From Fulvimarina sp. (lineage in GTDB: Bacteria > Pseudomonadota > Alphaproteobacteria > Rhizobiales > Rhizobiaceae), in contig PACL01000033.1 in assembly GCA_002700095.1 (NCBI GenBank), positions 40,121 through 104,120 of the forward strand: 64,000 nt of DNA. Reading direction: 5' to 3'. This document shows, piece after piece, positions 31,226 to 57,096 of the stretch. Under the pieces are notes generated by a model that was given only the letters and a program-made list of their open reading frames with translations, did not search any database and was not told where the DNA came from. The translations under genes and the position numbers were made by a program. Positions within the stretch are counted from its first letter, which is position 1. Each line of letters opens with the position of its first letter.

Positions 31226-31227
31226 GG

Positions 31228-33195: not shown

Positions 33196-33226
33196 CGGCC
33201 CTATACTCTATTGCGTAGTGGCCGTG

Positions 33227-34522: not shown

Positions 34523-34524
34523 GG

Positions 34525-36887
34525 TCAAAGCTCCTTCCAGAAGCCGGGATTTTCTCGCCAGTCGGGGGCGAGTTTTCGCCGCCGGGACCGGACACTAGAG
34601 CTGTCAGAAGCGGGCCGAGCGCTCCAAGGTCCATGTCGACGAAGACACTTCTGTCACCGGAGCGGATCGAGGCGTATCGGTTGCCTGACCCTGACGACAT
34701 GAGAAACTCCGTCTCGCCATCGCTCAGGCCGAGCGGCGCAAGCTCGGTCTGCGTGTTGCGCGAGTTCGGAAACAGGATCGTCGTGGCGATGCTTTCGAGG
34801 ATCGAGTTGCCGGCACGACTGTCCGCGATGTGCGAGACGCGCTGCGTCAGCATGACGACCGCGACGTTCTTCTTTCGCATCGTCAGCATCCAGTCTTTCA
34901 ACCGGCTCTGGAAATACGGGTCATCGAGGAGCTTCCACGCCTCGTCGAGCACCACCAGCGTCGGCCGTCCGTCCTCGATCGTACGTTCGATCCGGCGGAA
35001 CACGTAGCTCAGCCAGGCCGTGCGCACGGCCGGGACGTCGAGCAATTCCGTCAGATCGAAGCCGGTCACGTCATTGGCGAAGTGCAACGGATCTTCGGCG
35101 GTCCCGCCGAACAGCCAATCGTATCGACCGCCCTCATCCCATTGCGCCAGGCGCGTATAGAGGTCGCCGTCATCATCGACGCCGCGAAGCTGCGATCGGA
35201 AGTGGCTGATCGTCTGCAACACAGGATCGGCATCGGCGTTGCTCGCCGTCATTTGCGCCAAGGCTTCCCCCTGCATCGGGGAAAGCTTGTCGCCGTCCTG
35301 CGAAAGCAGCGCGCCAAGCCAGTCCGTCAGCCATGCCGTTCCGCGGGCGTCACCTTCCGCCCGGAACGGGTTGAAGCCGGTTTGCTCGCCCATGCGCACC
35401 GCCGAGTAGCTGCCGCCGAGCGCGCGAAGCGCCATTTCAAGGCCGCGATCCTTGTCGAAGGCGATGATGCGGGGGCGCGGTTCGATGCGTTGCGCTTGCG
35501 CCATCAGGAATGCGATCGCCGCGGTCTTGCCCGAGCCCGTGCGGCCGACGATCAGCGAATGGCCGACGGTGCGCTCACCTGGCTTGCCCGCCAGATGGAA
35601 GCTGAACCGATAAGGCTCATGGCCGAGCGTGCGGAACGTCGTGATCGGCGCGCCCCAGGGCACAAGGCCCGGCTCGAGCCCTTCGCCGTTCGCGTGGAGC
35701 GCAGCGAAGTCCGCGAAGTTGGCCGAGGAGATCATTGCCGCGCGGGCGCGGTAGCTGTGATTGCCCGGATGCTGCGCGAAGTACGCGCTACGCGCGCCGA
35801 TGTCCTCACGCACCATGACGCCGCCGGTGCGTTGTCCGGCGCTGCGAACGCGCGACGCGACCTCATCAAGCTCAGCCTCCGAACGGGCGAAGACAGTGAT
35901 GGAGGCTTGGTGCAGGCCGAAGCTGATCCGGCCAGAGGCCAGATCATCGGCCGCATCGACAAGCTGGATTTCCAGCGAGCGTGCCGCGTCGTCGGCGGCC
36001 CGCATCTGCCGTGCCGTCCGCTGGACGCGCGCCAGCGCCTCGAATTGCTCGATCGGAGTGAAGGAGTGCGTGACGACCGTATCGTGCGGCAGGTCGAGAC
36101 CGTCGAAGACGCCCGCCTGCGTTTCGGTCGGATATTTCTTGTAGGTGAAGATCGCGCCGAAGCGCGTCTCCTCCGCGTCGTTGCCGAAGACGATGAATGT
36201 GTCGTCTCTAAAATCAACTCGCGATGAGGCCATCAGATCGGCCAGCGGCCGAAATTCCGCCCCCGGCGAAAGCGGCCGATAAATACCCGACACGCATGCC
36301 TGCAGCATCCCGAGCCATTCACCGTTCGAGACAGAAAGGCGGTAAGGCGAGGCCGCAGAGAGCGCGCCCATCATATGCCCGACCACCTCGTTGAGCCGGG
36401 CGATGCGCCGCTCGCGCATTGCCATGAGATCGCGCTTGCCGCCGCCGGTGATCCGGGCCCACAGACTGGTCAGCGTCATGGGGCGCACGATCACCGTGAC
36501 CATGATCCGGCGCGTGCGCAGACCCATCACGCGAATGTCGGCTTGCCACGCCCGATCCCCCGCCGCGGCGAAGCCTTGGCCTTCGACCGGCGGCATGGCG
36601 ACGCTTGCCGGGTTGGAGACCCGATGTACGTAGAAGGCGACATCGGATCCGGACTGGGCGACGCCGCCGCCCATCGCGTCGGCCAGGTCGCCGACCGCCG
36701 CCTGTTCGGCGGTGAGCGCCTCGATGCCTTCGACCATGAAAGAGGCCATCACGTCACCGTCGCGCAGCATCAGCACGTCGTCGCCGACCGGGACGAGGTA
36801 GGGGAGATGCTTCGCGAGCATGTGTTCGCCCGCAAAGCCCCGCGGCTCGACGGCCTTGCGCCCATGACCTCTTTCGACGTCAAGCAC
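34525..36887 (-). CDS. virB4: VirB4 secretion ATPase, apparent C-terminal frameshift
   Basis: VirB4 family ATPase of about 790 residues. The N-terminal domain has EHMLAKHLPYLVPVGDDVLML and SNGEWLGMLQACVSGIYRPL. The motor domain has Walker A GRTGSGKTAAIAFL, EGEALAQMTAS, Walker B LVVLDEAWKLLDDP and MTLRKKN-like MRKKNVAVVMLTQRVSHIADS. After LLTALVSG the frame runs without a stop through the lipoprotein gene into virB5. A plausible native end (LAPDWRENPGFWKEL then TGA at 34525) lies one base out of frame. A one-base indel around 34570-34620 would restore a normal stop 2 bp before the lipoprotein gene. The ATPase core is intact. Confidence 0.85.
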
Positions 36888-39929: not shown

Positions 39930-40373
39930 CTACCGCCGATATGGCCCTGTGAAGAGGTCGCCCAGCGCGCGGCGGAGTAGCACGGTCAGACGGCGTTTTT
40001 CGATGTTCCAAGGGCGGTCGTGATCGAGGTGGCAGCGCTGGCAGAAGGCGGCGAGATTGTTGTCGGCGTTGTTGGCCGTGTTCTGGTCGAGATGGGCGCA
40101 GGCGAGGCGGACGAATGTCTGCGCAATTCCACCTTCGTCGCCTGACACCCTTGGATCGGGTGGTGTCTTTGTTCGAACCAGTCGTCCGCGGTTGTCGCGC
40201 CAGCGACCGGCAGTGTTGTCGAACCAGCGCCCGTCGCTCAGGTGATAGACAAGCTGGCCATGGGGTCGGCCGCATCGCTCGCAGCGTCCCTTGGCTCGAT
40301 TGAACCTGATCGCGGCCGAAAGTTCACGCCAGTCGATCGGATAGAAGTGCCGGTCTTCACGCCGGATCGGCAT
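39930..40373 (-). CDS. HNH-like zinc-ribbon protein
   Basis: 147-residue protein with a zinc-ribbon/HNH-type architecture. [10 protein letters not shown] near residues 31-40 is paired with [13 protein letters not shown] near 109-121. A histidine-containing core ([27 protein letters not shown]) matches small HNH endonuclease-like proteins found on alphaproteobacterial elements. It may cut or bind DNA; activity is unproven. ATG 40373 gives [15 protein letters not shown], the same start region as the fragment at 39066-39150. Its start overlaps the end of the recombinase gene by 17 bp, so the two are likely co-transcribed. Confidence 0.65.
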
Positions 40374-41016
40374 CGCTCCCCTCCCCGGCGGTCGCGTCCT
40401 CATTCTCTGGCGGTTTCATTATATCGAGCGCGCCCTGCTCTTTGTATTTGTCGCGCGCCCGGCTAATGGTCAGCCGGCTGACGCCATAGTCGCGGGCAAG
40501 CCGTGCGACTGACGCACCATCTTGAAGCTTAGTGATAACGGCCCGCTTCTGATCCTCGGTCAGACGTGGCGGACGGCCGAGCCGCTTGCCCTCGGATTTG
40601 GCTCGGATCAAGCCAGCCTGGGTGCGTTCGATCAGGAGGTCGCGCTCAAACTCGGCGACGGCATTGATGACACCCATGGTCATGCGGCCTGCCGGGCTGG
40701 TCAGGTCGACGCCGCCGAGCGCCAGGCAGTGAACCTTGATGCCGAGCTCGTCGAGTTGGTCGACGGTCTTGCGAACATCCATGGCGTTGCGGCCGAGACG
40801 GTCGAGTTTGGTGACGACAAGAATGTCGCCGTCTTCCAGTCGATCAACAAGCCTGCCAAAGCCCGGTCGTTCCGACGCCGCGGTCGCTCCAGAGATGGTC
40901 TCGGTGATGACCCGGCGCGGCTGAACCTGAAATCCTGCCGCGCGGATCTCGCCGAGCTGGTTCTCGGTGTGCTGCTCGATGGTCGAGACCCGGGCATAGG
41001 CGAAAATGCGCGACAT
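40357..41016 (-). CDS. Serine recombinase, resolvase/invertase family
   Basis: 219-residue small serine recombinase. It has YARVST at the N-terminus with the catalytic serine, [22 protein letters not shown] with the active-site arginines, and [46 protein letters not shown]-terminal helix-turn-helix ([28 protein letters not shown]) follows. It may resolve plasmid multimers or be a relic of a Tn3-type transposon, but no partner transposase or res site was found by eye. Confidence 0.92.
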
Positions 41017-41391: not shown

Positions 41392-41679
41392 ATGAAGCTC
41401 TACGAACTACCCATGCAGGAGAATGGTCGCGTCATCCTTCCCGCTGAACTTCGAAAGGCTCTGGGGCTCGCCAAGGGTGACAAGGTCATGCTCGAAGCAG
41501 AGGGCGACCAGGTGACCCTGACCACCGCGCGGCTCCGACGCAAACGGGCCCAGGAAATAGCCAAGCGCTATGCGCGACCCGGCGTCAGCGTCGTCGACGA
41601 GTTCCTGGCCGAAAAGCGCGCGGAGGCTGAACGCGAGATTGACCGCATCGAGCCCGGCAAAGAGGTCGCCGGGTCGTGA
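41392..41679 (+). CDS. AbrB/MazE-type antitoxin, copy 1
   Basis: 95-residue swapped-hairpin AbrB antitoxin. The N-terminal fold is LPMQENGRVILPAELRKALGLAKGDKVMLEAEGDQVTLTT. The C-terminal helix (RRKRAQEIAKRYARPGVSVVDEFLAEKRAEAEREID) would cover the PIN toxin. It overlaps the toxin start by ATG/GTG-A. Clearly paralogous to the antitoxin at 56402-56704 (shared NGR..LP..LR..L, then RRAQ-like, VDE.(L/I)A.(K/R)RAEA). Confidence 0.87.
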   Translation: MKLYELPMQENGRVILPAELRKALGLAKGDKVMLEAEGDQVTLTTARLRRKRAQEIAKRYARPGVSVVDEFLAEKRAEAEREIDRIEPGKEVAGS

Positions 41680-42068
41680 GCACCTGCGTCGTCGACACCT
41701 CGGCGATCCTCGCCTACGCCTTTGCGGAAAAAGGAGCGGCCAAGGTCGAGCGCTGCATAGATGCGGGAGCATCAGCGTCCGCGCTGACCGTTCAGGAGGC
41801 TATCTCGAAACTCTGCCAGACGGGAATGACGCAGGACGAGGCCGAAGAGCTCGTTCGCTCCCTCGGCCTTGATGTTCGCCCGCTGGATATTGCTTTAGCC
41901 TTCAAGGCTGGCGGTATGTTCGCGCTGACCAAACCCTTTGGCCTCAGCCATGGCGACCGCGCGTGTCTTGCCCTGGGTCAAGCGCTCGCCCTGCCGGTCG
42001 TCACCGCCGACAAGGCTTGGTCGAAGGTTGCCAAGAATCTCGGTATCCGCATTGAGCAGTTTCGATGA
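41676..42068 (+). CDS. VapC-type PIN toxin, copy 1
   Basis: 130-residue PIN ribonuclease with GTG start overlapping the antitoxin stop. Metal-binding acidic residues are in VVDTSAILAY, VQEAISKL, LSHGDRACLALGQAL and VVTADKAW. The family is the COG4374-like VapC group. Paralogous to the toxin at 56701-57096. Probably an RNase that acts on free toxin release. Confidence 0.88.
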   Translation: MSTCVVDTSAILAYAFAEKGAAKVERCIDAGASASALTVQEAISKLCQTGMTQDEAEELVRSLGLDVRPLDIALAFKAGGMFALTKPFGLSHGDRACLALGQALALPVVTADKAWSKVAKNLGIRIEQFR

Positions 42069-42378: not shown

Positions 42379-43161
42379 ATGTCGCTGCAGCCGGGCGAGA
42401 AGATCGGGATCATTCTCGACACGGAAACGACAGGTCTCGATTATCGCCGTCACGAGATCATCGAGCTCGGCATGGTGATGTTCACCTATGGTGCCGAGGG
42501 CATTCGGGACGTGGTCGGCGTGTTCGACGAATTGCGGGAGCCGGGCGAGCCGATCGCTCCCGACATCACTCGCATCACTGGCATCACGGACGACATGGTC
42601 GCAGGACAGTCGATCGATCCGGCAGCCGTTGCCGATTTCGTCGCTCCCGCCGATCTCGTTATCGCCCACAATGCCCGGTTTGACCGTCCGTTCTGCGAGA
42701 CATTTGCATCTGGCTTCGATCTGAAAGCCTGGGCGTGTTCAAACCAGGAGGTGGACTGGCGCGCCTTCGGCTTCGAAGGGTCGAAGCTCGGCTACCTCGT
42801 CGGTCAGTGCGGACTCTTCCACAACGGCCATCGGGCTATTGACGACTGCCATGCCCTGCTCGAGGTGTTGGCGTTCCAACACGAAGCAAACGGATGTGCA
42901 TTCCCTCACCTCGTCGCATCGGCCGCCAAACGACGCTGCCGGATCTGGGCGCAACACAGCCCGTTCGACCTGAAGGACGCGCTCAAAGCCCGCGGCTACC
43001 GCTGGAACGACGGCAGCGACGGGCGGCCGAAGAGCTGGTGGACCGAGATTGACGAAGAGGGCTTCGACAACGAGTGTCACTTCTTACGCGAAGAGATCTA
43101 CCGTCAAGATATCGATCCGCACCTAGAATGGCTAACGGGGGTCGAGCGATACAGAGCCTGA
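42379..43161 (+). CDS. DnaQ-like 3'-5' exonuclease
   Basis: 260-residue DEDDh exonuclease. Exo I ILDTETTGLDYRRHEIIELGMV, Exo II HNARFDRPF and Exo III HRAIDDCHALLEVL hold the catalytic Asp/Glu and His residues. A C-terminal extension (DLKDALKARGYRWNDGSDGRPKSWWTEIDEE) is found in a subgroup of bacterial epsilon-like proteins annotated as 3'-5' exonucleases. It would degrade single-stranded DNA or RNA ends. The upstream N-terminal segment is cut off by an in-frame TAG. It lies 225 bp before the ubiquitin-like operon and on the same strand, so it might be co-functional. Confidence 0.85.
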   Translation: MSLQPGEKIGIILDTETTGLDYRRHEIIELGMVMFTYGAEGIRDVVGVFDELREPGEPIAPDITRITGITDDMVAGQSIDPAAVADFVAPADLVIAHNARFDRPFCETFASGFDLKAWACSNQEVDWRAFGFEGSKLGYLVGQCGLFHNGHRAIDDCHALLEVLAFQHEANGCAFPHLVASAAKRRCRIWAQHSPFDLKDALKARGYRWNDGSDGRPKSWWTEIDEEGFDNECHFLREEIYRQDIDPHLEWLTGVERYRA

Positions 43162-43386
43162 AGACGGAAAAGGTGGGCCGACAGCGGACATGCAACTTTC
43201 CGTCGGCTAAAGTTCAGAAGCAGACATTGATCCACGATCCCGATCGCCGAGGCGACATCGACCGGCTCACGCCAGTGTCTAGGCTTTTTTCGCCCAGACT
43301 AAAGATTTGTTCCCAAATCCACGGGGGCAATTTCGCTGGGGTTCTTGAGGGCGGCCGGTTCGCCGCCTGATCAGGAGCCAAGCCCC

Positions 43387-44839
<1,453 letters not shown>

Positions 44840-44843
<4 letters not shown>

Positions 44844-46219
44844 CCACCGATCCCGACCACCTGCACCGCACGGCGAAATACTTCATGGACAGCGGCCGCG
44901 CCGCGACCGCCGACGATGCGGTTGACATGCTCTCCCGCTTTGGCCTCGCGATCCGCGTGGACCCGGCGACCGTCACGACGGTGAACGGACAGGTCGGGCT
45001 GCTCACCCTAGTCAATGCGGCACGCCGCACGATGCTCGGCGGCATCGAGGTCGAGGGCGTCGGAGGTCAGGCGGTGGTCACCAAGCTGGCGACCGAGGCC
45101 ACCCTGCGCGAGGCGGTCGAGGCGCTCGGAGGTACCTGCGTCGAGAAGGTCCGCGCCGCCTGGCCGCGCGCGATCATTGGCGACGTGGGCGCGCCGACAG
45201 GTTCGACGCCCGCGTGGCGCCTGCAGTGGGCTGGCTGGCGCGGCGGCGTGATCCCGTCGACCTGGCCCACCGCAATGATGGACGACGCCATATCGCTGGC
45301 GCCGGCCCTAGCCGCAGCCGCATGCGTCGGCGAGGTCTTCGCCTGGCACGCCGGCGACCACGACATGGCGGGGCGGCGTGCTTCGGGGCTCTCAATCTGG
45401 GACCCGGGCAAGTCATGGATGGAGCCGAATTCGACCGAGCCGGCCCTGCGGCACCTTCCCACGCATCTTTGGTTCATCGGCTTGGGAAACCTCGGTCAGG
45501 CGTTTGCCTGGGCGCTGGCGTCGCTGCCCTATCCTGAGGGTGCGGATGCCCTGCTGATGCTCCAGGACTTCGACAGCATGGCGGTGTCGAACGACAGCAC
45601 ATCGCTGCTCGCGGTGCCCGAGCAGCCGACCGTCATGAAGACGCGATGGGTCGGCGATTGGCTGCAGCGCCGGGGCTTCGACGTGCGGCACGAAGAGCGG
45701 CGTTTCGGTGCCTGGACCCGGCGCCACCATCTCGAGCCCGGCGCGGAGCTGTGCGGCGTGGACAACGCGGCCGCCCGCGCTGCGCTGGAGGAAGCCGGGT
45801 TCGACCTGGTGGTCGAGGCCGGTCTGGGCGCGGGAACGCAGGGGTTCCGGAACTTCTCCCTCCACAGCTTTCCCGGGCCCAAGCGCGCGAGCGTGATCTG
45901 GGGCGGCGCTGCGGCGTCGGCCACGGCTCCCGACGTCTCGAGGATGCCCGCCTACGAAGCGATGAAGATGGAGGGCGTCGACGGCTGCGGCCTCGCCCAG
46001 ATCGCGTCACGCACGATCGGCGTGCCCTTCGTCGGGCTGACCGCCTCGGTCCTTGCGGTGGGCGAGCTGCTGCGGCGCTTGCACGGTGGCGGCGCTATGG
46101 AGCTGGTGTCGGGTTCGCTGATGGCGCTGGACGACACAGAGGCGTTCACCGGCGCCCCCGAACCCTACGCCCATGGACACCTCGACCTTGATCCCGTTGA
46201 CATCCCCAAGGCGGCCTAA
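44840..46219 (+). CDS. bilD: E1-like ubiquitin-activating enzyme
   Basis: 459-residue ThiF/E1-family protein. The N-terminal ~200 residues form an extension with a weak adenylation-like pattern. The active adenylation fold begins at LWFIGLGNLGQ (211-220, ATP loop), with LQDFDSMAVSN (acidic binding residues) and the candidate catalytic Cys383 in MEGVDGCGLAQIASRTIGVPFVG. It would activate BilA and pass it to the E2. The ATG overlaps the deubiquitinase stop (ATGA). The long upstream open frame is a wrong frame. Complete, with no frameshift. Confidence 0.85.
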
Positions 46220-46506: not shown

Positions 46507-49500
46507 TCACACGCCGCAAATGAAATAGCACGGGCAATTCGGACAGTAGCGCGGATCGCTTGGCTTGGCGGGAAAATTCCCCGCCTCGATCCCGGCGATC
46601 GCATCCCCGAACGCCTTGACCGCCTTGTCCTCCTTACTAGCGGGGAAGTCGCGCGTCACGCCGTCCCCCGGGTAATAGGCCTCGACCGAGATCGCCCGAC
46701 CCGGAAACCTGCGCCGCGCCGCCAGCAGCATCGCGCCGTAGATCGGATTGTCGCCTTCGCTCTTGGTCTGTCGCCCCGTCCTGATCCGTTGCACGCGGAC
46801 CACGCCGCCGGTGTCGACCAGACGGTCGGGCTCGATCGTCAAGGTGCGACCGCCGACCGGCAGTTCGAGCGGCCCGTCCGGATAGGCTCCCTGCTCGGCT
46901 CCGACGTATGCGGCGTCGTTCAAGACCATGCGGTTTGCGGCCTGGCGGTAGTAGTTCTCGAAGCCGTGACCAACTGGGCCGCGCTCGGCCCATACCACAT
47001 CTAGCTGCGCCAAAGCCTGCGGCGCGCTCGTCGCAACGCCCTCGCCACGTCGCTGCTCGATCCACGCCAAGGTCCTCCGAACACACCGGTGGAAGTCGAG
47101 GAAGGCGGCCCCGTCGGTGCCCGCGCGCAGGCCCATCATTTGCTCGTAGCGGTACCTCGCCGGGCAGCGGATGTAGGTGTCGAGCTCGGTGGCCGAGTAG
47201 TTCGTCCGCTTCTCGACCGCGACCGGCGGCCTCGCCGGGGGCTGTGGCACGCTCGATGGCGCCAAACGGGTCCGCGTCAGTATCGCTGAGACCGAGTCTA
47301 GGAACTTGGACGCGGAGGCGTTCTGGGACGTGTATTTCTGGGCTCGGGTCAGCGACAGGTGGTCGCGAGCGCGCGAGAGCCCCACGAAGAACAGGCATTC
47401 CTCCTCGGCATCATGGTCCTCCTTGCCCATGTTGAGCTGAGGGTACTTGCCGAGCGTGGGCATCCTCGAACCCTTGCGGCTGGCGGGCATGTATTTCGTC
47501 GCCAGGGCGGGGAGATGCACCGCGGGGAACTCAAGGCCCTTGCTGCCGTGGATCGTCAGCACCCGGACGGCGTCGATGTCGGTCGCCTCAGCCGAGATCG
47601 CGCGGTAGGCGCTGTCCTGGTTGAGCAGCTCGATGCGCCGAATACGCGCCAGCAGGCGGCGGCGGCTCCTGTCGCCCGCCGCATCATGCTCGCCGCACAC
47701 TTTGAGTAGCTGATAGATCGCGATCAGCTTCTGCCGGTCGGCGGGGTCCGAGCTCCGTACGAGCGGGTCGAGGTAGCCGCCGGTCTCGAACAGCCACCCC
47801 GTCAGCATCGTCCAGGGCGTCGTCGTGGCGCCAACGAACGCTAGCTCGCCGCCGAGCCGGGCGAGGCCGAAGCGTCCGCCGTCCGACAGACCTTCAATCT
47901 CGGCGACGCTCGACAGCGCGGTTATCACCGGCCGCTTCTGCTCGCGGGCCCAACTTATCACCTTCAAAGTGTCCTGCTCCGTCGCGCCATACGCCGGCAA
48001 CTGGCCCACCCGGACCAGACCAAGCCCGCCGAACTCGGCGTCGAGGGCGACCAACGACAGCAGGTCCCGGATCTCGCCGCGCTCGAACAGGTCGCCCAGA
48101 TACAGAAGTGGCACGTTCAGCCGCTCGAGCAGGGACGTCAGGCGGCCAAGCGTAAGGTGGCTGCGAGCGAGTATGGCCTGATCGCGATACGGGACGCCGG
48201 CGGCTCTCAGCCCCTCGATCCGGTCGCGTATCGCGCAGGCCTCGTCCTCCAACGTCCCACACACCTCCAGCGTGACCTCGCCGACGGCGCCGCGGTTGGC
48301 CTGCCACTGCGATTGCCGGCCGCCGGTCATTCCGCCGGTGAAGGCAGCGAAGGCTCTGACGACTGGCGTTCCAGACCGGTAGTTGATCCCGAGGGTGTGG
48401 CGCTTTCCGCCGAACTCGGAAGGAAACCGCTCGACGTTGGATGGCTCCGCACCTCGGAACCGATAGATCGACTGGCGATGGTCGGCCACGACCCAAATGT
48501 CGCGGCATTCGCTGGCGAACGCGCGCAGCAGCATCGAGCTCGCGTAATTCACGTCCTGATACTCGTCGACGAGCAGGTGCCGGTAGGACCCAATGACGTC
48601 GGCCCGCACCTCATCGTCCGCCAACAGCGCGACGGCATGGCCGATGAGGTCGCCGAAGTCGACAGCGTCCGCCTCGGTGAGCAGCCTCTCGTAGATGACA
48701 TAGACCTTGCCGACCTCGACCGCCTTCTCGGCTGCCTCCCGGCCCGCATCGTCGACCGCCGCAGCCAGATCCGCGTCGGCCGCGGCCAGATATTCGACCG
48801 GACCGATAAGTTCGTCCTTCGCCCGCGAGATCGCGCTCACCACGAAAGCAAGTTCAAGGGCCGGCTCGAACAGGTTCTGGTAGTGCCGGAGTGGAAGCTG
48901 CTCGAGGTTGGCCTCCAGCAGCGCCAGGCTTGCAGTCGGGTCGAGAATCTTGACCTTATCGGTCCGGCCGATGCGCCCAGCGAAGCGGGTGACCAGCTCC
49001 AGGCCGAAGGCGTGGAACGTCCCGACCCACATCTCGATGGCCGCATCGGCGTCGACCGCCGACAAGCGCTCGCGCATCTCCTCCGCGGCCTTGTTGGAGA
49101 AGGTGAGCGCGAGGATCGACGACGCCGCGTCCCCCTTGAGGATGCGCGTGATGCGTTCAACCAAAGTGCGCGTCTTGCCCGTGCCCGGACCGGCGTGGAC
49201 TAGCAGTGGCCCGTCGTCCCAATCGACGGCGGCCTGCTGATCATCGTCCAGACCATAGACGACCTTCTCGCGCTCCTCGACATCGTGACGGATGAGAGGC
49301 GGCAGCAGAAGAGCCCTGATCGCCTGCTGGAGCACGAGGTTGCGCGGCAACCCAACTTCGGTCGCGATCCCGGAAGGCCTGGCACCGGCCAGAAGCCTGT
49401 CTCTCAGCCAGTCGGAGGGACAAAGGAACTCGCCCGCGAAGACGTCCGCCTGCACCTCCTTGCGCTCGCGCGAGGAGTATCCGTCGACGCGCGCCCCGCC

Positions 49501-49839
49501 GCTCTCCACCGGTTCGCCGGAGAGCCGCATCGACACGTCGGTCACGTCGCTCTCGGGATCGGTGTGGAGTCGGAAGTGTCCGAACTCGTGGGCGATGACG
49601 ACCACCTCGTCCTCCTCGGCCTGGCCGCGCGCGACGTGGACGATGCCGGGACCGCGCTCGAAGAACCCGAGTACATCCTCGCCCGCGCGCGTGCCTGGAT
49701 CGAACTTGACGATCTGCAGGTCGTGCAGCTCGATCATGGCGTCGATCAGGTTGCGCGCGGTCGGCGCGGCGTTCGTCTTCGCCAACGCGGCGGCGCGGCA
49801 GTCTCGCGCGGCGAGCCGGATGTCGCTCCAGGCGTCCAT
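46507..49839 (-). CDS. ImmA/IrrE protease - UvrD helicase - PD-(D/E)XK fusion
   Basis: 1110-residue multidomain protein. The N-terminal ImmA/IrrE metallopeptidase has HEFGH at 84-88 and a downstream Glu in ERKEVQADVFAGEF. The UvrD/Rep superfamily 1 helicase core follows, with Walker A HAGPGTGKTRTLVERI near 216-230, DEYQD, the Q-box region GLDDDQQAAVDW and INYRSGTPVVRAF. The C-terminal region has YIRCPARYRYEQMM and ends with CPNCPCYFIC, the C-x2-C-x5-C cysteines of Cas4/AddB-type 4Fe-4S nucleases. The nuclease DYKTG motif is altered (VRVQRIRTG), so catalysis is doubtful. It ends a five-gene operon; the start overlaps the XRE gene stop. The combination suggests a DNA-end-sensing helicase with a built-in regulatory protease. 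Confidence 0.85.
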   Translation of the reverse strand: MDAWSDIRLAARDCRAAALAKTNAAPTARNLIDAMIELHDLQIVKFDPGTRAGEDVLGFFERGPGIVHVARGQAEEDEVVVIAHEFGHFRLHTDPESDVTDVSMRLSGEPVESGGARVDGYSSRERKEVQADVFAGEFLCPSDWLRDRLLAGARPSGIATEVGLPRNLVLQQAIRALLLPPLIRHDVEEREKVVYGLDDDQQAAVDWDDGPLLVHAGPGTGKTRTLVERITRILKGDAASSILALTFSNKAAEEMRERLSAVDADAAIEMWVGTFHAFGLELVTRFAGRIGRTDKVKILDPTASLALLEANLEQLPLRHYQNLFEPALELAFVVSAISRAKDELIGPVEYLAAADADLAAAVDDAGREAAEKAVEVGKVYVIYERLLTEADAVDFGDLIGHAVALLADDEVRADVIGSYRHLLVDEYQDVNYASSMLLRAFASECRDIWVVADHRQSIYRFRGAEPSNVERFPSEFGGKRHTLGINYRSGTPVVRAFAAFTGGMTGGRQSQWQANRGAVGEVTLEVCGTLEDEACAIRDRIEGLRAAGVPYRDQAILARSHLTLGRLTSLLERLNVPLLYLGDLFERGEIRDLLSLVALDAEFGGLGLVRVGQLPAYGATEQDTLKVISWAREQKRPVITALSSVAEIEGLSDGGRFGLARLGGELAFVGATTTPWTMLTGWLFETGGYLDPLVRSSDPADRQKLIAIYQLLKVCGEHDAAGDRSRRRLLARIRRIELLNQDSAYRAISAEATDIDAVRVLTIHGSKGLEFPAVHLPALATKYMPASRKGSRMPTLGKYPQLNMGKEDHDAEEECLFFVGLSRARDHLSLTRAQKYTSQNASASKFLDSVSAILTRTRLAPSSVPQPPARPPVAVEKRTNYSATELDTYIRCPARYRYEQMMGLRAGTDGAAFLDFHRCVRRTLAWIEQRRGEGVATSAPQALAQLDVVWAERGPVGHGFENYYRQAANRMVLNDAAYVGAEQGAYPDGPLELPVGGRTLTIEPDRLVDTGGVVRVQRIRTGRQTKSEGDNPIYGAMLLAARRRFPGRAISVEAYYPGDGVTRDFPASKEDKAVKAFGDAIAGIEAGNFPAKPSDPRYCPNCPCYFICGV

Positions 49840-50453
49840 CAGAGATCAGCCAGCCAGTAGTCGATCTCCTCCTGGCTCATGCCGGACGACCTTACGATCT
49901 CCTCGAAGGTGCGCTGGTTCGCGACCGGCTGGCCGACGGCCTTAGCGCGCCCCCCGAGCGAGGGAGCCATTGCGACGCGCGCATGCGCCACGTTGAACGC
50001 CTCGAGGGATACGCCGAGCTCGCGCGATATCGCGATGGAGAAGCGAGGCCGCGTATCGGACATTCGCCCGGCGAACAGATCCGCCACAACCACGCGCTCT
50101 ATAGGCAACCTCCGCGCCAGCTGCGGCTGGGACAGTCCGGACCGCTTGAGCATCTCGTTGAGCGTCGGCACCGGAGCGGCAACCGCCTCCGCGGCGCGAT
50201 CGTCCGCCTCCGCCGCGAACATGGCGGCCTGCACGCGGCTCCCGGCCCGGGCAATCATGTCGTTATCCAGCTCGGCGGCCGCCTCAATGGTGTCGGCCAG
50301 CATGGCCAGACGGACGGCTGCATGCTCGCGGATGTCATGCGCTAACTTCGGATGAAGATCCGCCCAGCGCTCCACGTCGGCGCGGGTTGGAATGTCGCAT
50401 CCCTCGTGGAATGCGATCAGCACTTCATCCCTTTCCTGCTGATTGTCTTCCAT
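49839..50453 (-). CDS. XRE-family-like regulatory protein
   Basis: 204-residue protein. An N-terminal helical region (HPKLAHDIREHAAVRLAMLADTIEAAAEL) precedes a Cro/C1-type HTH (LNEMLKRSGLSQPQLARRLPIERVVVADLFAGRMSDTR, about residues 115-150). A C-terminal segment (RTFEEIVRSSGMSQEEIDYWLADL) follows. ImmA-type proteases cut XRE repressors in mobile-element switches, and this gene lies directly before an ImmA fusion, making it the natural substrate. ATG 50453 is chosen as it overlaps the sigma-like stop by one base; the longer upstream frame is a shadow of that gene. The stop overlaps the helicase start by one base. Confidence 0.75.
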   Translation of the reverse strand: MEDNQQERDEVLIAFHEGCDIPTRADVERWADLHPKLAHDIREHAAVRLAMLADTIEAAAELDNDMIARAGSRVQAAMFAAEADDRAAEAVAAPVPTLNEMLKRSGLSQPQLARRLPIERVVVADLFAGRMSDTRPRFSIAISRELGVSLEAFNVAHARVAMAPSLGGRAKAVGQPVANQRTFEEIVRSSGMSQEEIDYWLADL

Positions 50454-51133
50454 CACGAATTTCCGATCTTCTTGGCTAGTTGCTTCTGGACGGCCGCGAC
50501 CCTGGAAGCGGCGGTGTCTGGGCTGATTCCGAGGATGCTGGCGATCGAGGGACCGTTCTTGCTGCTGCAGGGGAACCCCTGCATGTGGAGCACGAAGGCC
50601 GCGCGCTTGTCCTTGTCCCGGATGCTGTCCAGGATGCGCTGCACGTAGACCTCCTGCTCCGCATAAGAGAACAGCTCGGTCTTCGGATCCACCATGCCGC
50701 CGGGGTCGTCGACCATGTCCGGACTGCGCTTCATCGCGATGATAGCTTTGCGCGCGTGGTCGATCGAACGCTTGCGGAGCGTGGACTTGAACCACTTCCG
50801 CAGACCCTCGCCATCGGCGGCGGTCGGCGACAGTAGCGCATCCACCATAGCGGCGTGCACGTCCTCGACGATGTCGCGGCCCTGGTTGGGGAACGCCGTC
50901 GAAGAGATCTCGCCGCGGATCACCTCCAGCATGCGACGGGAGATGAAGCGGATCATCTCGCGCACGAAGTGCTGGTCGACGCCCGCGCGGCGGTAATTAG
51001 CCCTGATCGCCCCGACGATCACCCCTTCCGGGAAGCCGGACAGCTGGCCATGCTCGACGACCAGGCGCCAGCTTTGGTGGTCACCCGGCAGCGGAGGCTC
51101 ATCGTCCGCGTCACCCATCAGTATCTCCTCCAT
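50453..51133 (-). CDS. Sigma-70-like protein
   Basis: 226-residue protein resembling ECF-type sigma factors. A region-2-like part (DIVEDVHAAMVDALLSPTAADGEGLRKWFKSTLRKRSIDHARK) is followed by a region-4-like HTH (IRDKDKRAAFVLHMQGFPCSSKNGPSIASILGISPDTAASRVAAVQKQLAKKIG). It may direct RNA polymerase to its own operon or act as a DNA-binding adaptor. It starts 66 bp after the ATPase gene and is coupled to the XRE gene (TGATG). Divergent from housekeeping ECF sigmas, so the sigma role is inferred. I know of no named system containing this trio. Confidence 0.7.
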   Translation of the reverse strand: MEEILMGDADDEPPLPGDHQSWRLVVEHGQLSGFPEGVIVGAIRANYRRAGVDQHFVREMIRFISRRMLEVIRGEISSTAFPNQGRDIVEDVHAAMVDALLSPTAADGEGLRKWFKSTLRKRSIDHARKAIIAMKRSPDMVDDPGGMVDPKTELFSYAEQEVYVQRILDSIRDKDKRAAFVLHMQGFPCSSKNGPSIASILGISPDTAASRVAAVQKQLAKKIGNS

Positions 51134-51199
51134 ATCTGGATCTCGGAGACAAGGGCGAAGGCTGACGCGGAAAATTGGGAAAAAAGTTCACCCGTCCGA

Positions 51200-54100
51200 T
51201 CACGACAGCGTGCATTCGGAATGGAGCTCGGCGCCGACCACAGATTTTGCGATCACGACGAGGTGCGGGTGATGGGTGAAGAACAGCACCTGGGTGCTCC
51301 GGGCCACCTCGACCAAGACCCGAAAGCCCGCCTCCGCCCGGCGGTCGTCGAAGTTCACAAATAGGTCGTCGGCGAGGAACGGCAGGGCGACCCCGGCCGC
51401 GACCGACTGCTCGAGCGCGGCGAGGCGCAGCGCGAGGAACAACTGGTCGGTGGTGCCCTCGCTCATCGCGTCGACGTCGACCATCGTCCGCATGTCGTCG
51501 CGCACGCCCCGGAGCCGGGGGCTGGAGCCGTCGGTGTCCACCTTGAGCGTCGCGTAGCGTCCCGTGGTCAGGGTAGAGAAAAGTTCGCCCGCGCGCAGCA
51601 GCAACGGGTCCTGATGCCGCTCGCGATACCTCTCGATAGCCCACTTTAGCGTAACCGCCTGCGTCCGCTTCAGGATGTAGTCCTCGGCGAGGACCTCCAG
51701 CTCCGAACGGGCCTGCTCGGCATCGGCCGCTGCGTCGACGGCGGCGGTGCCGCCTGTGTCGAGCGCCGCGAAGGTGGCACGGGCGTCGCCGTGCGCAGTT
51801 GCCGCCGCGTCCACCGCCGCGTTTAAGTCATCGAGACGGGCTCCCAGCGTCGCCAGCTGCGACGCGACCTGATCTGGGTCTGTCGCCTGAACCGCGGCGA
51901 CCAGTGCGTCGAGTCCGAGACCGTCGCCGGCCTCGGTGATCGCACCCTCGGTCGCGGCCACCCCATCGAACAACGCGCGCCTGGCTCTTGAGCGTTCGAT
52001 CGCCGCGGAGAGCGCAGTCCTATCCGCCGCGCCGGTTTCCGCCAGGAATGGCGCGAGGGCCTCGTCGGTCGCCGTCAGCTTGGCCTGCGCCTCCTGCAGC
52101 TCGCCCTGGCGGCGACGGTCCTCCTCGTCCAGCGAACCGTGAAGCGTCTCCGCGATCCGCGCCGCTGCGAGCCGGTCCCGCATCGAGCGGAGACGCTCGG
52201 GCACCCCGCCCGCGGCGATGCCGAGCGTGTCGGCGAGCCGTCCCACCGCCGCCGCGTGATCCCGGGTGTCGCGCGCGATGCCATCAATGCGGCGACGAAG
52301 GAGCGCTTCGGACGAAGACGCCTCGCGAAGCTCGTCGAGAAGATCGAGCACGGCTCCGCAGGCGGTCACGTCGACGTCCAGACGCGCCTCGGCCAATGCC
52401 GCGGCCCACCCTGCGGCAGTCGTCGCCGCCGCGCCTTCCGCCGCGCGGGCCCTTCGGTCGAGCGCAGTGGTCTCGGCGCCGACTTGATCCAGCTCCGCCT
52501 GCGCCAGCAGGCGCTTGCGCGAGACTTCCTCGGACGCGGCGCGGCGCGCCTCCGCCCTGACGAGCACGGGCCCGAGCGGACCGGCGGCATCCGTAGTCCC
52601 GAGCGCGGCGGCGAGCGCCGATCGCGCCGCATCACGCTTGGCTTCAGACCGCTCGGCCTCCGAGACCAAGCCGCGCAGCTCGGTCTGCGCCGCCTCGCAC
52701 GCGTCGCGGTCCGCCTGCCAGGAGTTGAACCTGCCAGGCTCCAGTTCAGGCAAGCCGACATCGCCCAGCCGGCGCCGCCAGGTGGCAAGGACCTGGTCGT
52801 GACGGTCGCGCGCCGACCGCGCGCGGGCCGTAGCCTGCTCGCCCCCGAGGTCGTGCGACGCCCGCGTTCGCTCCAGTAGGGACAACCGGCTCGATGCGTC
52901 GGCGGCCGCGTAGCGTGCGTCCGCCCGCCCGTCCGCCGCCGCGACGCCAGTCTCGAAAGCCGCGACCGCGTCTGCCGGAGACGCGAGGGACGCGCCATCC
53001 ACGAGGGGGTCGCGGAGCGGCCGCCACAGACGGTCACGCTCGGCTCGCACCTCCAGGATGTTTTCGGCCGACACGGCAGTCCCGGTCGCCAGCTGCGAGA
53101 TCTCGAGCGCCGCTGCCGAAGACTGGTCCGACGCGCGCTGGGCGGCCTCCTCCTCGCGGCGGATGTCCGCGACCAAGGCCGCCAGGGCTTCGCGCGCCTC
53201 CTGGATCTCGGTGGCGTCCACCCTGGGCAGGCGGGCGAGCAAATCTGCATCACCCGTCCACGGCGCGAGCCGGGCAAGCGCGTCGGCGGCCCCGCGCCTG
53301 GCGACGTCCAACTTGCCGCGCGCGGCGTCGCAGCGGGAGTCGGCGTCGGCGCCCAGCGCCCGCGCCTCGTCGACGGCTGACTGCAACGCTTCGTCGGCGT
53401 CGCCGATTATGTTGGCGGCAAGGGCCGCCTCTGCACGACCCCGCCGCTCATCGATGCGTTGCCGCTCTTCCTGGAGCTGGCGCGCCGCCAGGCGCTGCTC
53501 GCCGTCGATACGGGAGAGCTCCCGCAAGCGCGCCGCGAGTTCACGCGGCGGCGCCGCATCGGCGTTCGGGCCAGCCTCGGCGCGGAGTCGGCGGACCGCC
53601 GCCGCCGCCTCGGCGTGCTCCGCCTCGAGGCCGACCAGGTCGCGCTTCGCCTTGATCTCGGCGCCCGCCTCAGCGACAAGGCGATCGACCTCTTCCGCCT
53701 CCCCGAGCACTTGCGCGTCGGTCGATACGGCGGCACGCCGGTCGGCGACGTCCGCGCGCAGGCTCTCGGCCGCTACCATCGCGCGCACCGCCTCATCCGC
53801 CTCACGGATCAGCTCCTCGGCGGCGGTCTCGCGCTGACGCCCGAAGTCTACGACCCCGTCGTAGTCGGCGAGCGCCGCCTTCTGCTCCTCGCGGCGCCGA
53901 GCGAGCGGTGCGATACGCCTGACGCGTTCGGCGGACCTGGACTCAGTTTGGACCGCGTCACGGTCGCGGCGCGCCGCTTCCAGTGCCTCGCGCGTCCGCT
54001 CCGTGGCGATCCTGGCGTCCGACCAGGCCTTTGGCTTCAACGCGTCATCGCGCACGATCCTCGCGGCCTCCGCAAGCTGGCGCTGGGCCTGCGTGAACGT

Positions 54101-54640
54101 GCGGCTACCACGGGTGGTCGGGCCCCAGATCGCGTCGGCCTCCGCCTCCAGGCGGCGTAGCTCGTCGGATACCCCGGTCAGGCCAGACCCCGCAGCGAAT
54201 AGCGTGCGACCGACATCGTTCTTCGCCTCGACTACGGCTTGTCCGCCCAGACGGAGCGCGGCCTGATCCAGACTGAAGGAGAGGCCAAACGTGTCGCGGG
54301 TCTGGCCGCGCAACATCGCGGCGAGCGGCCCCTCATCGATAGCGGCGTCGTCGGCACCAAGCAAGGTGACGCCCGTCCCCTTCTTCCGGCGGCAGGCAAG
54401 CGTCATGCCGCCGTCCTCCAGCACCGCGCCGACGCGGAGCAGCGAGTAGTCGAACAGAAAGTTGTATGGCGATCGCTGGGGAAAGCCGAAGAGTAGGTCC
54501 GAAACCGCGGCCAGCGACGTCGTCTTGCCGGCCTCGTTCTCGCCGTAGATGACGTGGAGGTCGGGACTGCCGATACGGAAGTCCAGCTCGCAGTCCTCGA
54601 AACGCCCGTAACGTTCGAGCGAGAGGCGGGAAAACCGCAT
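51200..54640 (-). CDS. YhaN-like SMC/Rad50-family ATPase
   Basis: 1146-residue SMC-like ATPase of the YhaN (AAA_27) type. The N-terminal head has RFSRLSLERYGRFEDCELDF and Walker A GENEAGKTTSLAAV. Two long Ala/Glu/Arg-rich coiled coils span about residues 180-1000. The C-terminal head has signature SEGTTDQLFLALRLAALEQ and Walker B PFLADDLFVNFDD, then a His-switch region FFTHHPHL. It should pair with the metallophosphoesterase to form an Mre11-Rad50/SbcCD-like nuclease that senses DNA ends. It starts 2 bp after that gene. No zinc-hook CxxC was seen in the middle, unlike SbcC. It is nearer to YhaN. Confidence 0.88.
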   Translation of the reverse strand: MRFSRLSLERYGRFEDCELDFRIGSPDLHVIYGENEAGKTTSLAAVSDLLFGFPQRSPYNFLFDYSLLRVGAVLEDGGMTLACRRKKGTGVTLLGADDAAIDEGPLAAMLRGQTRDTFGLSFSLDQAALRLGGQAVVEAKNDVGRTLFAAGSGLTGVSDELRRLEAEADAIWGPTTRGSRTFTQAQRQLAEAARIVRDDALKPKAWSDARIATERTREALEAARRDRDAVQTESRSAERVRRIAPLARRREEQKAALADYDGVVDFGRQRETAAEELIREADEAVRAMVAAESLRADVADRRAAVSTDAQVLGEAEEVDRLVAEAGAEIKAKRDLVGLEAEHAEAAAAVRRLRAEAGPNADAAPPRELAARLRELSRIDGEQRLAARQLQEERQRIDERRGRAEAALAANIIGDADEALQSAVDEARALGADADSRCDAARGKLDVARRGAADALARLAPWTGDADLLARLPRVDATEIQEAREALAALVADIRREEEAAQRASDQSSAAALEISQLATGTAVSAENILEVRAERDRLWRPLRDPLVDGASLASPADAVAAFETGVAAADGRADARYAAADASSRLSLLERTRASHDLGGEQATARARSARDRHDQVLATWRRRLGDVGLPELEPGRFNSWQADRDACEAAQTELRGLVSEAERSEAKRDAARSALAAALGTTDAAGPLGPVLVRAEARRAASEEVSRKRLLAQAELDQVGAETTALDRRARAAEGAAATTAAGWAAALAEARLDVDVTACGAVLDLLDELREASSSEALLRRRIDGIARDTRDHAAAVGRLADTLGIAAGGVPERLRSMRDRLAAARIAETLHGSLDEEDRRRQGELQEAQAKLTATDEALAPFLAETGAADRTALSAAIERSRARRALFDGVAATEGAITEAGDGLGLDALVAAVQATDPDQVASQLATLGARLDDLNAAVDAAATAHGDARATFAALDTGGTAAVDAAADAEQARSELEVLAEDYILKRTQAVTLKWAIERYRERHQDPLLLRAGELFSTLTTGRYATLKVDTDGSSPRLRGVRDDMRTMVDVDAMSEGTTDQLFLALRLAALEQSVAAGVALPFLADDLFVNFDDRRAEAGFRVLVEVARSTQVLFFTHHPHLVVIAKSVVGAELHSECTLS

Positions 54641-54642
54641 GC

Positions 54643-55893
54643 TCAGCCCTCCCTCGTGAGGCGCGACCGTAGCGCGGTCGACGCGGCGGCAAGGACGCCC
54701 GCCCAGTCACCCCGCGTAGCCCCCAGCCGCAGTTCGCCATCATTGCGCTCGCCGAGCGAAGTGCTCGCCGCCAGCATGAAGCGCTCGAGGTCGCGACCGA
54801 TCGCGGCCACGAGGTCGGGATTGGTCGCCGCCCCGTCGATCATGGCGCCAAGGTCATCGCCGACCGCGACCGTCGTCCGCGCCGGTTCGGTCACATCGAC
54901 CCGGACCTTCTCGACGAACAGGTCCGGGGAGATAGAGGTGGCGATCGCGCGCACGTCGTCGCGCAGCGTCGCGGCACGGTCGCGAAACGCGCCGGCCTCC
55001 GCCGTCTCCCCTACGAGCGTCACGCGCACGATCAGCGGCCGACCCGAGGCGTTCGTGCCGTGGAGGCCGACGAGCGCGGACCGCAGCACGTCCTCCGCGT
55101 CGTCCATGCCCGCCCCGGCGCAGTTCACGTCGAGACGGGCCCAGCGGATCACGTCAAGCTCGACCCGCTCCACCAACGCGACCTCGCCGTCGGCCACATC
55201 GACCAGGACCGCACCCTTGGCACCGGTCTCTCTGATGGTTCGGCCCTGCACGCTGCCGGGGAAGACGACGTAGGGCTCGTCGCTGACGACCTCGAACTCG
55301 TGAACATGACCGAGCGCCCAGTAGTTGTAGCCGCGCGACCGCAGGTCCTCGACGCTACAGGGCGCGTAGTCCGCATGGCCCTGCCGCCCGGCCAGGGCCG
55401 TGTGGAGCATGCCGATGTTGAAGACGTGCGGCTCGGCCGGCGGATAGGCGAGGACAAGGTTCTCGGTGACGGCCGGCGTCGAGAAGCTCTGGCCATGGAC
55501 CGCGACGGAGAGGTGAGCGAGGCGGTGCGTCTCGGGCCGCCTCGAACCAAACAGATAGACGTTGGGCGGCCAGGGGACGGTGCGCGAGACCACCGAGGCC
55601 GCGTCGTGGTTGCCGGCCAGCAGGAATGCCGGGATGCCCGCCTGGTCGAGCCGCCCCATCGCCTTCGCGAAGTAGAGGCCGGTGCCCATGTCGCGCCAGT
55701 CGCCGTCGAAGAGGTCGCCCGCGATCACGACGAAGTCGACCGCCTCGTCGATCGCGAACTGCACGAGGTTATCGAAGGCTGCGCGCGTCGCCGAGCGGAT
55801 CTCGTCGACGGGCAAGCCCTCGTATCTCGACAGGCCGTGCAGCGGGCTGTCGAGGTGGATGTCGGCTGCGTGCAGGAACCTGAAGCTCGTCAA
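54643..55893 (-). CDS. SbcD/YhaO-like metallophosphoesterase
   Basis: 416-residue calcineurin-type exonuclease subunit. The metal-ligand motifs are FLHAADIHLDSPLHG (DxH), VVIAGDLFDGDWRD (GDxxD), LLAGNHDAAS (GNHD), IGMLHTALAG and WALGHVHEFEV (GHxH). It is the nuclease partner of the YhaN-like ATPase that follows. The start is TTG at 55893, giving MTSFRFLHAADIHLD, with GGGGGATGAG in front; the longer upstream frame lacks similarity. First gene of the five-gene operon. All catalytic residues are present. Confidence 0.9.
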   Translation of the reverse strand: MTSFRFLHAADIHLDSPLHGLSRYEGLPVDEIRSATRAAFDNLVQFAIDEAVDFVVIAGDLFDGDWRDMGTGLYFAKAMGRLDQAGIPAFLLAGNHDAASVVSRTVPWPPNVYLFGSRRPETHRLAHLSVAVHGQSFSTPAVTENLVLAYPPAEPHVFNIGMLHTALAGRQGHADYAPCSVEDLRSRGYNYWALGHVHEFEVVSDEPYVVFPGSVQGRTIRETGAKGAVLVDVADGEVALVERVELDVIRWARLDVNCAGAGMDDAEDVLRSALVGLHGTNASGRPLIVRVTLVGETAEAGAFRDRAATLRDDVRAIATSISPDLFVEKVRVDVTEPARTTVAVGDDLGAMIDGAATNPDLVAAIGRDLERFMLAASTSLGERNDGELRLGATRGDWAGVLAAASTALRSRLTREG

Positions 55894-56398
55894 CTCATCC
55901 CCCCTGCGCCGGACCGGCCTCGCGTTCGGATGCCGCCAAGCTGACGGAATGTGAGAGCAATTCACCGCCACTTACAAGGCCTGATACTGGTTCGCACCGG
56001 ATCAGACTCATCCACGGACCGTCGCACGATGGATCAGACGGCCCTCTTCGCCTGGTGGCTCTAGCCGACCGCTACGAATTGCGTGCAGTGAAGGTCTGCG
56101 TTCATCAACCCTTTGCGCGCCCTCTATTTGACTACGAATTTCTTGAATCCGTCAGCTCATTGAACGGTGACTAGCGTCCGCTTTCGGGATCACGCCGGCC
56201 CCCGTTGAATGACCGTTGTGGGCGCAGAGTTGCCGCAAGCCGTGCGCTATCGACTTCTGAACATGCGCAAACCTGGTCGTTCAAGGGCATAAGGAAACGG
56301 GACAGAATAGGCTCATTCCCAAACTGCTTCCAAAATCACCCGCGAGTATCTATCTTGGACTGGGGCGTTAACGCTCACTGCCTCCTCAAAAGGAATGA
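55894..56398. other. Spacer between the nuclease operon and TA pair 2
   Basis: About 500 bp between divergent units. It should carry the promoter of the five-gene operon on the minus strand and of the AbrB/PIN pair on the plus strand. No clear inverted repeat or gene was found, and short frames here have no family features. Confidence 0.35.
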
Positions 56399-56401
56399 AT
56401 G

Positions 56402-56704
56402 ATGCTTGATCGGCATGTTGTACCTGTCGCGAGAAACGGGCGCATGAATCTTCCTTCAGCTCTTCGTGCGAAACTCGACTTGGAAAGCGGCGGCAAGGTC
56501 GTCTTTGTCGAAAAAGACGACGGAGAGGTGGAGGTGACAACCCTGCGTCGCTCCCTAAAGCGCGCACAGGATCTGGTGAGGCAATACATACCTGCGGACG
56601 TCAATCTTGTGGACGAGGTGATCGCCGATCGTCGCGCGGAAGCCCAACATGAACTGGAAGATGAGGCCTCTTGCAACGATCAGAGCGACCAGATCCAAAA
56701 ATGA
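56402..56704 (+). CDS. AbrB/MazE-type antitoxin, copy 2
   Basis: 100-residue AbrB-fold antitoxin (HVVPVARNGRMNLPSALRAKLDLESGGKVVFVEKDDGEVEVTT) with a C-terminal toxin-binding helix (RRSLKRAQDLVRQYIPADVNLVDEVIADRRAEAQHELED). ATG 56399 directly precedes and may be used instead; AAAAGG is upstream. The stop overlaps the PIN gene by ATGA. Paralogue of the antitoxin at 41392. Confidence 0.87.
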   Translation: MLDRHVVPVARNGRMNLPSALRAKLDLESGGKVVFVEKDDGEVEVTTLRRSLKRAQDLVRQYIPADVNLVDEVIADRRAEAQHELEDEASCNDQSDQIQK

Positions 56705-57096
56705 GCGGCTCTGTTCTGGACACCTCGGCAATCATGGCATTCTTGCGCAGCGAAATTGTAGGCGAAGAAGTCGGCCGAATGCTTGAAAATCGGGCGATCG
56801 TGTCGACCGTCAACGTGCAGGAGCTTCTGGCGAAACTGATCTCCAAAGGGATGAGCGTGGGCGATGCGCGTCTGACGGTTCGATCCTTGAACCTTGAAGG
56901 GCATGATCTCTCTTGGACGCTGGCGGAAAGCGCCGCTGAGATGATCGAGCATACCCAGGCTCACGGGTTGAGTTTGGGCGATCGAAGCTGCCTCGCTCTC
57001 GCCCGGGCTTTGAACATGCCAGCGGTCACGGCCGATCGCGCCTGGGCGAACGTAGCGGATGATCTGGGTGTAGACGTCGTCTTGATACGAGGATGA
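56701..57096 (+). CDS. VapC-type PIN toxin, copy 2
   Basis: 131-residue PIN-domain RNase. Acidic residues are in VLDTSAIMAFLRSE, VNVQELLAKLISKG, LSLGDRSCLALARAL and AVTADRAW. Same architecture as the toxin at 41676, including QE..KL.(S/T)KGM and LS.GDR.CLAL. It overlaps the antitoxin. With the other copy it brackets the defence-like island. Confidence 0.88.
   Translation: MSGSVLDTSAIMAFLRSEIVGEEVGRMLENRAIVSTVNVQELLAKLISKGMSVGDARLTVRSLNLEGHDLSWTLAESAAEMIEHTQAHGLSLGDRSCLALARALNMPAVTADRAWANVADDLGVDVVLIRG

Follow-up and report, generated by a model that had tools for sequence, protein, structure and literature searches.

Bil operons carry out ubiquitin-like conjugation in phage defence, the tagging of phage proteins being their published role. 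In type III-E CRISPR, a protease frees an RpoE-like sigma factor in defence. DNA-damage-responsive controllers of immune operons are described in PMC13373217, in which single-stranded DNA activates CapP to cleave CapH, CapW (CapW/BrxR) and the CapH and CapP pair adjoin 219 of 544 Bub operons, and CapK with CapS adjoins Bub, CBASS and five Bil operons. In the chromosomal radiation response of Deinococcus, the M78 protease PprI (IrrE) senses and is activated by single-stranded DNA and cuts the XRE repressor DdrO, according to PMC10904395. Here we analyze a window, a stretch of 64,000 nucleotides from Fulvimarina sp. (contig PACL01000033.1), in which a five-gene operon on the minus strand (46507-55893) adjoins a complete BilABCD operon. 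Three of the five genes encode an extracytoplasmic function (ECF)-sigma-like protein, an XRE-like protein and a fusion of an ImmA protease to a UvrD helicase (ImmA-UvrD). We consider it rather probable that this triplet is a conserved DNA-damage-sensing switch turning on the adjoining ubiquitin-like operon.

Like the CapH and CapP pair, the window has an HExxH M78 protease beside a helix-turn-helix (HTH) protein at an immune operon. A profile of its ImmA part matched CapP best among PDB chains (E 9.6e-6) and IrrE weakly, and the XRE profile matched CapH and, weakly, DdrO. However, the window protease forms part of a fusion with UvrD and a degenerate RecB-like domain, a gene for an ECF-type sigma factor accompanies the pair, and the XRE-like protein carries an additional N-terminal domain and matched no PADLOC family at E<=0.1, hence not the capH model. 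Compared with CapK and CapS or CapW/BrxR, no kinase, STAS or WYL domain was found by Pfam among the five proteins, and the logic is one of protease and sigma factor. For PprI (IrrE) and DdrO we know of no helicase fusion or sigma partner. The CAS_III-E_sigma model matched 2 of 44 members of the sigma family, but the protease of type III-E CRISPR belongs to a different class. As a proposed DNA-damage controller of immune operons, the triplet would be of an already known kind, with a sensor architecture that is new and a sigma output. No description of sigma, XRE and ImmA-UvrD genes beside Bil or multiubiquitin operons was found in the titles and abstract openings searched, which did not cover the main Bil papers or Gong 2025, and the words 'UvrD', 'helicase' and 'sigma factor' were absent from the searched part of the text of a 2006 operon catalogue (PMC1779556). 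The gene set is possibly described elsewhere, for example by Ye et al. 2026 (cited in PMC13373217).

Association of the triplet with ubiquitin-like operons

An ImmA-UvrD profile built from 16 proteins was run against one genome per species (84,980 species), and the best 80 of 125 confirmed relatives gave 78 distinct loci. These comprised 52 full-type loci (L006-L057), where the match went beyond the helicase core or was cut off by a contig end, and 26 control loci (L058-L083, 437 kb), where only the helicase part matched (plain UvrD). According to family hidden Markov models (HMMs), 35 full-type loci contained a Bil operon, three (L044, L050, L053) a multiubiquitin operon and 14 neither, four of the latter (L042, L049, L052, L057) being truncated close to the gene; a search with only the window's own BilD likewise recovered 35 of the 52. 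In the control loci, none of the models for sigma, Bil, multiubiquitin, SbcD and SMC matched, and the XRE profile matched once, weakly (L066, 17 bits). Because our first sigma and XRE profiles drew on genes chosen for their position in these very loci, and so were circular, we rebuilt them only from loci found by the window's own protein. A sigma gene was near in 37 of the 52 full-type loci with the independent profile, compared with 43 when the profile included the same loci, and an XRE gene in 45 with either profile. The order sigma, XRE, ImmA-UvrD, BilA, BilB, BilC, BilD on one strand was found in 33 of the 35 Bil loci as far as contigs show, with L021, L038 and L045 beginning inside the helicase gene. 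The two exceptions are Sphingobium L020, where Bil lies upstream of SbcD, and Jiella pacifica L006, where Bil is inverted; L006 is the window's twin, its last gene being 100% identical to the window's ImmA-UvrD.

Judged by title, the sources of these loci include Alphaproteobacteria, a betaproteobacterium (Propionivibrio), a gammaproteobacterial metagenome-assembled genome, Planctomycetia, Chloroflexi and Acidobacteria; a Leptolyngbya plasmid extends ImmA-UvrD to Cyanobacteria. The earlier note on this DNA had made its novelty depend on whether the genes co-occur elsewhere and match no described system or housekeeping repair cluster. Co-occurrence was found in several phyla, on chromosomes as well as plasmids; the partner is the described Bil system, so that novelty stands only in part. 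Among 72,556 plasmid records, 91 matched ImmA-UvrD at E<=1e-60, 45 of them from Acinetobacter. Eight were examined (Rhizobium phaseoli, Mesorhizobium, Cereibacter, R. sullae, Leptolyngbya, Pseudomonas koreensis, Roseovarius and Acinetobacter seifertii), of which one carries Bil and seven multiubiquitin. The multiubiquitin operon of Cereibacter (L108) encodes Multi_ubiq, a DUF6791-ThiF protein whose ThiF match falls slightly short of the cut-off, and DUF6527; in that of Agrobacterium (L044), Multi_ubiq is joined by a Prok-E2_E protein and a ThiF protein that matches JAB below cut-off. On plasmid p2 of P. koreensis (L110, 11447-18448), the controller is separated from the multiubiquitin gene by IS66-type genes.

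In a sample of 385 genomes of the window's class, 179 matched the query at E<=1e-50, in nearly all cases within the helicase core alone. Of the matches listed, five (the window's own genome, G373, G340, G266 and G065) span the protease and nuclease parts, and a ubiquitin-like operon adjoins all five (three Bil, two multiubiquitin). A housekeeping repair cluster was rejected given these five genomes and the presence of AAA_27, the SMC-like domain of the operon, in 23 of the 385. A phage origin was likewise rejected: among the best 80 of 183 viral relatives, one (L151) matched via its protease and nuclease parts, at 29% identity. An XRE-like gene precedes the match in L151, where no ubiquitin-like operon was found. 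At L046, L047 and L051, two of which are Armatimonadetes-type by title, ImmA-UvrD has no detected sigma or XRE gene and is followed by a conserved gene (with a VpsR domain in L046). The Acidobacteria-type loci L037 and L041, with no ubiquitin-like operon detected, have a PolB-type 3'-5' exonuclease after ImmA-UvrD (13828-14436 and 13488-14369; Pfam in L041, same cluster in L037).

Should the triplet act as a controller, another one is expected at Bil operons that lack it. We therefore picked 17 loci by BilD alone, 7 from the 385 genomes and 10 of 34 plasmid records. ImmA-UvrD was present in six (the window's own, G340, G373, L093, L113, L147), and an HTH protein with an M78 peptidase but without ImmA-UvrD in eight, as two genes in L102, L145, L148 and L149 and as one fused protein in L095, L101, L105 and L150. 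Pfam identified M78 in all eight (barely over cut-off in L145), and HTH was assigned by Pfam or annotation; an M78 peptidase adjoins Bil in 14 of the 17. One further locus (L146) has sigma and XRE genes but no helicase. None of these controller types was found in two loci (L094, with IS66 nearby, and L103, with a partial BilD). In L147 a short sigma match precedes an IS256 gene, and the XRE search gave no match. The pair at Paraburkholderia caffeinilytica L145, whose strain we take to be an experimentally tested source of Bil, lies immediately 5' of BilA and matched the PADLOC models capP (E 6.1e-9) and capH (E 1.3e-5), although HTH_VI fits its HTH protein better than capH does (8.9e-10). As single sequences against PDB chains, the L145 ImmA and HTH proteins gave no CapP or CapH match, whereas the PADLOC models did match. 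In L148 (5006-6412) and L149 (5041-6456), an exonuclease gene, ExoI-like by Pfam in L149, stands in one run with the HTH and ImmA genes, divergent from Bil.

Proteins of the triplet

The five genes are tightly packed, with the spacing given in the earlier note: 2 base pairs (bp) between the SbcD and SMC genes, 66 bp between SMC and sigma, and one-base overlaps at sigma/XRE and XRE/ImmA-UvrD. Its gene names were likewise borne out by Pfam for Metallophos, AAA_27, UvrD, PDDEXK_1 and Peptidase_M78; the sigma and XRE matches lie below cut-off.

The ImmA-UvrD gene (49839-46507) encodes 1110 residues with Peptidase_M78 (E 1.7e-9), UvrD (E 2.9e-59) and PDDEXK_1 (E 5.7e-13) matches; in PADLOC the protein matched 55 families. 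Its M78 peptidase has the HExxH motif, and the helicase motor motifs are intact in the aligned family. By contrast, the D-x-K catalytic motif of the PD-(D/E)XK domain is kept in none of the 173 aligned rows, a RIRTG-type motif standing where DLKTG is expected. Four cysteines flanking the nuclease fold (C892, C1099, C1102, C1108), as in the Fe-S domains of AddAB and Cas4, are present in 172 rows. Loss of D-x-K indicates that this domain is probably a DNA-binding part rather than an active nuclease; end processing, which the earlier note had proposed for the five genes together, is therefore unlikely for the fusion, and sensing fits better. AddAB/AdnAB enzymes have the same UvrD and RecB-like layout, but in the fusion this motif is lost. 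Gabija shares a GajB-type score for the UvrD part (PADLOC); however, no full-length GajA-like partner was found among the window neighbours tested, and the window helicase is fused to a protease. Gabija was rejected, the SMC protein matching GajA models only over about its first 50 residues (PADLOC).

The sigma-like protein (51133-50453; 226 residues) has the region 2-like and region 4-like folds of an ECF sigma factor, joined by a flexible linker. It had no Pfam match and a sub-cut-off NCBIfam sigma70-ECF match (E 1.4e-5, 24.8 bits versus 42.9 required), a model matched at E<=0.01 by 38 of the 44 family members. In L007, L009, L028 and their relatives (Caulobacter-like loci), a conserved stretch about 100 bp before the sigma start is a candidate promoter, which was not found by eye in the window. 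The XRE-like protein (50453-49839; 204 residues) combines an N-terminal helical domain, a Cro/CapH-type HTH (HTH_3 below cut-off, E 6.5e-4, Pfam) and a [KR][AST]xxxP tail motif. We propose it as the substrate of the protease and inhibitor of the sigma factor.

BilABCD, accessory genes and surroundings

The complete BilABCD operon (43345-46219, plus strand) converges on the ImmA-UvrD gene with 287 bp between their stop ends. It encodes the ubiquitin-like BilA (43345-43872, likely starting at about 43387 by eye; PDLC03844, E 2.7e-50), the E2-like BilB (43874-44359; PDLC03845, E 5.2e-65; DUF7665 by Pfam), the JAB-type deconjugase BilC (44313-44843; PDLC03846, E 5.7e-66) and the E1-like BilD (44840-46219; PDLC03847, E 4.6e-154), all on the plus strand, and the four PADLOC models covered nearly their full length. 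The earlier note, which knew of no named defence system with the five genes, had overlooked this adjoining one. All four Bil genes are thus present with strong matches; the operon differs here in its opposite orientation to the controller and in having SbcD-SMC at its border. An RNase T-type exonuclease gene lies immediately 5' of BilA (42379-43161); as a conserved part it was rejected, since its matches in the scanned loci were confined to records of the window itself (L006, L106) and a viral contig (L190).

The first two genes of the five-gene operon encode an SbcD/Mre11/YhaO-like phosphoesterase (55893-54643, minus strand; 416 residues, TTG start; Metallophos E 2.8e-12) and an SMC/SbcC-like ATPase of the YhaN type (54640-51200, minus strand; 1146 residues; AAA_27 E 2.2e-71), an AAA_27 ATPase beside a Metallophos protein as in YhaN/YhaO and SbcCD. 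By eye, the active-site motifs of SbcD and the Walker A of the SMC protein both appear intact. Of the 52 full-type loci, 10 have an SbcD-like gene nearby and nine an SMC-like gene (HMM); the same pair occurs in eight (L006, L010, L020, L022, L025, L026, L043, L052), before or after Bil depending on the locus, and a different Metallophos and SMC_N pair in L053 and L055. On plasmid L147, a 'DNA repair exonuclease' and a 'YhaN family protein' directly follow Bil. As AAA_27 was found in only 23 of the 385 class genomes, the closeness of the pair to the controller appears far above chance. Unlike the Mre11/Rad50-like pair of SbcCD or YhaNO itself, the pair is optional here. Since the triplet travels with a ubiquitin-like operon in 38 of the 52 loci and SbcD and SMC genes are rarer, we take the triplet and not the five genes as the natural unit, with the pair as an optional accessory. 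The compact operon, its own regulatory circuit and the link to defence in the earlier note are thus upheld, whereas its five genes are not the recurring unit. A 31-bp block 5' of the operon (55947-55977, minus strand) is a candidate promoter or operator; it recurs upstream of SbcD in Sphingobium L020 with 3 of 31 positions different, and no second copy was found within the window.

On three rhizobial plasmids, an AddAB-like pair of PD-(D/E)XK nuclease and UvrD genes follows multiubiquitin or Bil (L096 14834-20883, L109 15297-19135, L149 10487-16434). Two similar antitoxin-toxin pairs (41392-42068 and 56399-57096) bracket the island of Bil and controller, their antitoxins being MazE/AbrB-type by Pfam (the second just below cut-off) and their toxins PIN-like by eye; a serine resolvase gene (40357-41016, Pfam) lies close to the left border. 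RepB/ParA-like partition genes (248-2463) and a type IV secretion and coupling-protein set (25041-36887; VirB4-, VirB8-, TrbI-, VirB11- and TraG-like) suggest that the window belongs to a conjugative plasmid. A second contig of the assembly repeats, at 99.97%, positions 38366-64000, the window's final 25,635 bp; it may be a redundant contig or a true duplication, so that the genome gives no clear two independent copies.

A proposed switch and its alternatives

From the gene order, co-occurrence, domain content, the motifs kept or lost and the HTH and ImmA genes at Bil operons without the triplet, we propose that phage attack, DNA entry or damage would produce single-stranded DNA or open ends, which the helicase and nuclease-like parts may bind and track. 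These would switch on ImmA, an M78 zinc protease, just as single-stranded DNA activates its homologs CapP and PprI. The activated protease may cut the XRE-like protein, perhaps near the conserved [KR][AST]xxxP tail, which would release the ECF-type sigma factor, lift repression, or both; RNA polymerase would then transcribe both controller and ubiquitin-like operon. Bil, once expressed, would tag phage proteins. Where present, SbcD-SMC might trim or cut DNA ends, feeding the sensor or attacking the invader. The added helicase might allow longer or unwound DNA to be read, and the added sigma factor could give a switch-like response and action in trans, which the inverted Bil of the window would need.

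Several observations weigh against such a switch. Ten loci with visible flanks (L033, L036, L037, L039, L041, L046, L047, L048, L051, L056) have no ubiquitin-like operon, and three of them also lack sigma and XRE genes. On a Cupriavidus plasmid (L146, 4632-6049), sigma and XRE genes stand beside Bil without ImmA-UvrD, a candidate for a partial or decayed controller. Distant sigma members reach just 20-42 bits with the independent profile, and the XRE-like protein could be a repressor, an anti-sigma factor or both. The 31-bp block is absent from L052, a third five-gene relative, and the window's BilA promoter shares no element with the block upstream of the operon; local alignment of the two upstream regions scored 10.5, compared with a mean of 9.0 and a maximum of 13 for shuffles.

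That BilA directly follows ImmA-UvrD in most Bil loci, that the helicase motor is intact and that ImmA-UvrD stands at both Bil and multiubiquitin types would also suit an effector part of Bil, a DNA-tracking E3-like recruiter to proteins on phage DNA, with sigma and XRE setting expression only. However, the HTH and ImmA genes without ImmA-UvrD in eight of the 17 BilD-chosen loci, including L145, follow the pattern of a regulator, and the ImmA part finds its best PDB match in a regulator protease; we regard such a recruiter as unlikely. Quite unlikely in our view is the stand-alone end-sensing and processing defence machine of the earlier note, with sigma and XRE as its own regulators and Bil as a chance neighbour. 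Apparently intact SbcD and SMC motifs argue for it, as does the one five-gene order of the window, L020 and Sphingomonadales L052, also found in L010, L022 and L025; yet the SbcD-like gene is infrequent and stands before or after Bil, a ubiquitin-like operon is near in most full-type loci, and the nuclease motif of the fusion is lost. Alternatively, the genes might form a DNA-damage response, for repair or tolerance, that is carried on plasmids and in which ubiquitin-like tagging serves stress control and not phage defence. Bil anti-phage activity is published, the distribution is sporadic (the five class genomes among the matches listed), and AbiEii-type or restriction genes adjoin some loci, all of which make this account very doubtful. 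In its favour are the inferred plasmid carriage here and carriage elsewhere, the repair-type nature of UvrD, SbcD and the AddAB-like partners, and the statement in PMC13373217 that phage blocking by Bub operons is so far undemonstrated.

Returning to the DNA-damage-sensing switch, we find the chances about even for its wider form, a controller family for ubiquitin-like systems in which a helicase acts as DNA sensor with a dead nuclease domain as its DNA-reading head, and ImmA destroys an HTH anti-sigma factor or repressor to unleash a private ECF sigma factor. Such a family would also replace CapH/CapP-type controllers at Bil, serve multiubiquitin, and have spread over Proteobacteria, Chloroflexi, Acidobacteria, Planctomycetes and Cyanobacteria. 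A four-gene Bil construct would lack the native switch, and the choice of what to clone in studies of Bil and multiubiquitin would therefore change. The switch offers a concrete, testable answer to how ubiquitin-like defence is turned on, namely by a self-contained sensor, protease and sigma factor beside the operon, a set that many lineages and also plasmids carry. If true, one immune circuit would join DNA sensing, regulated proteolysis and sigma control.

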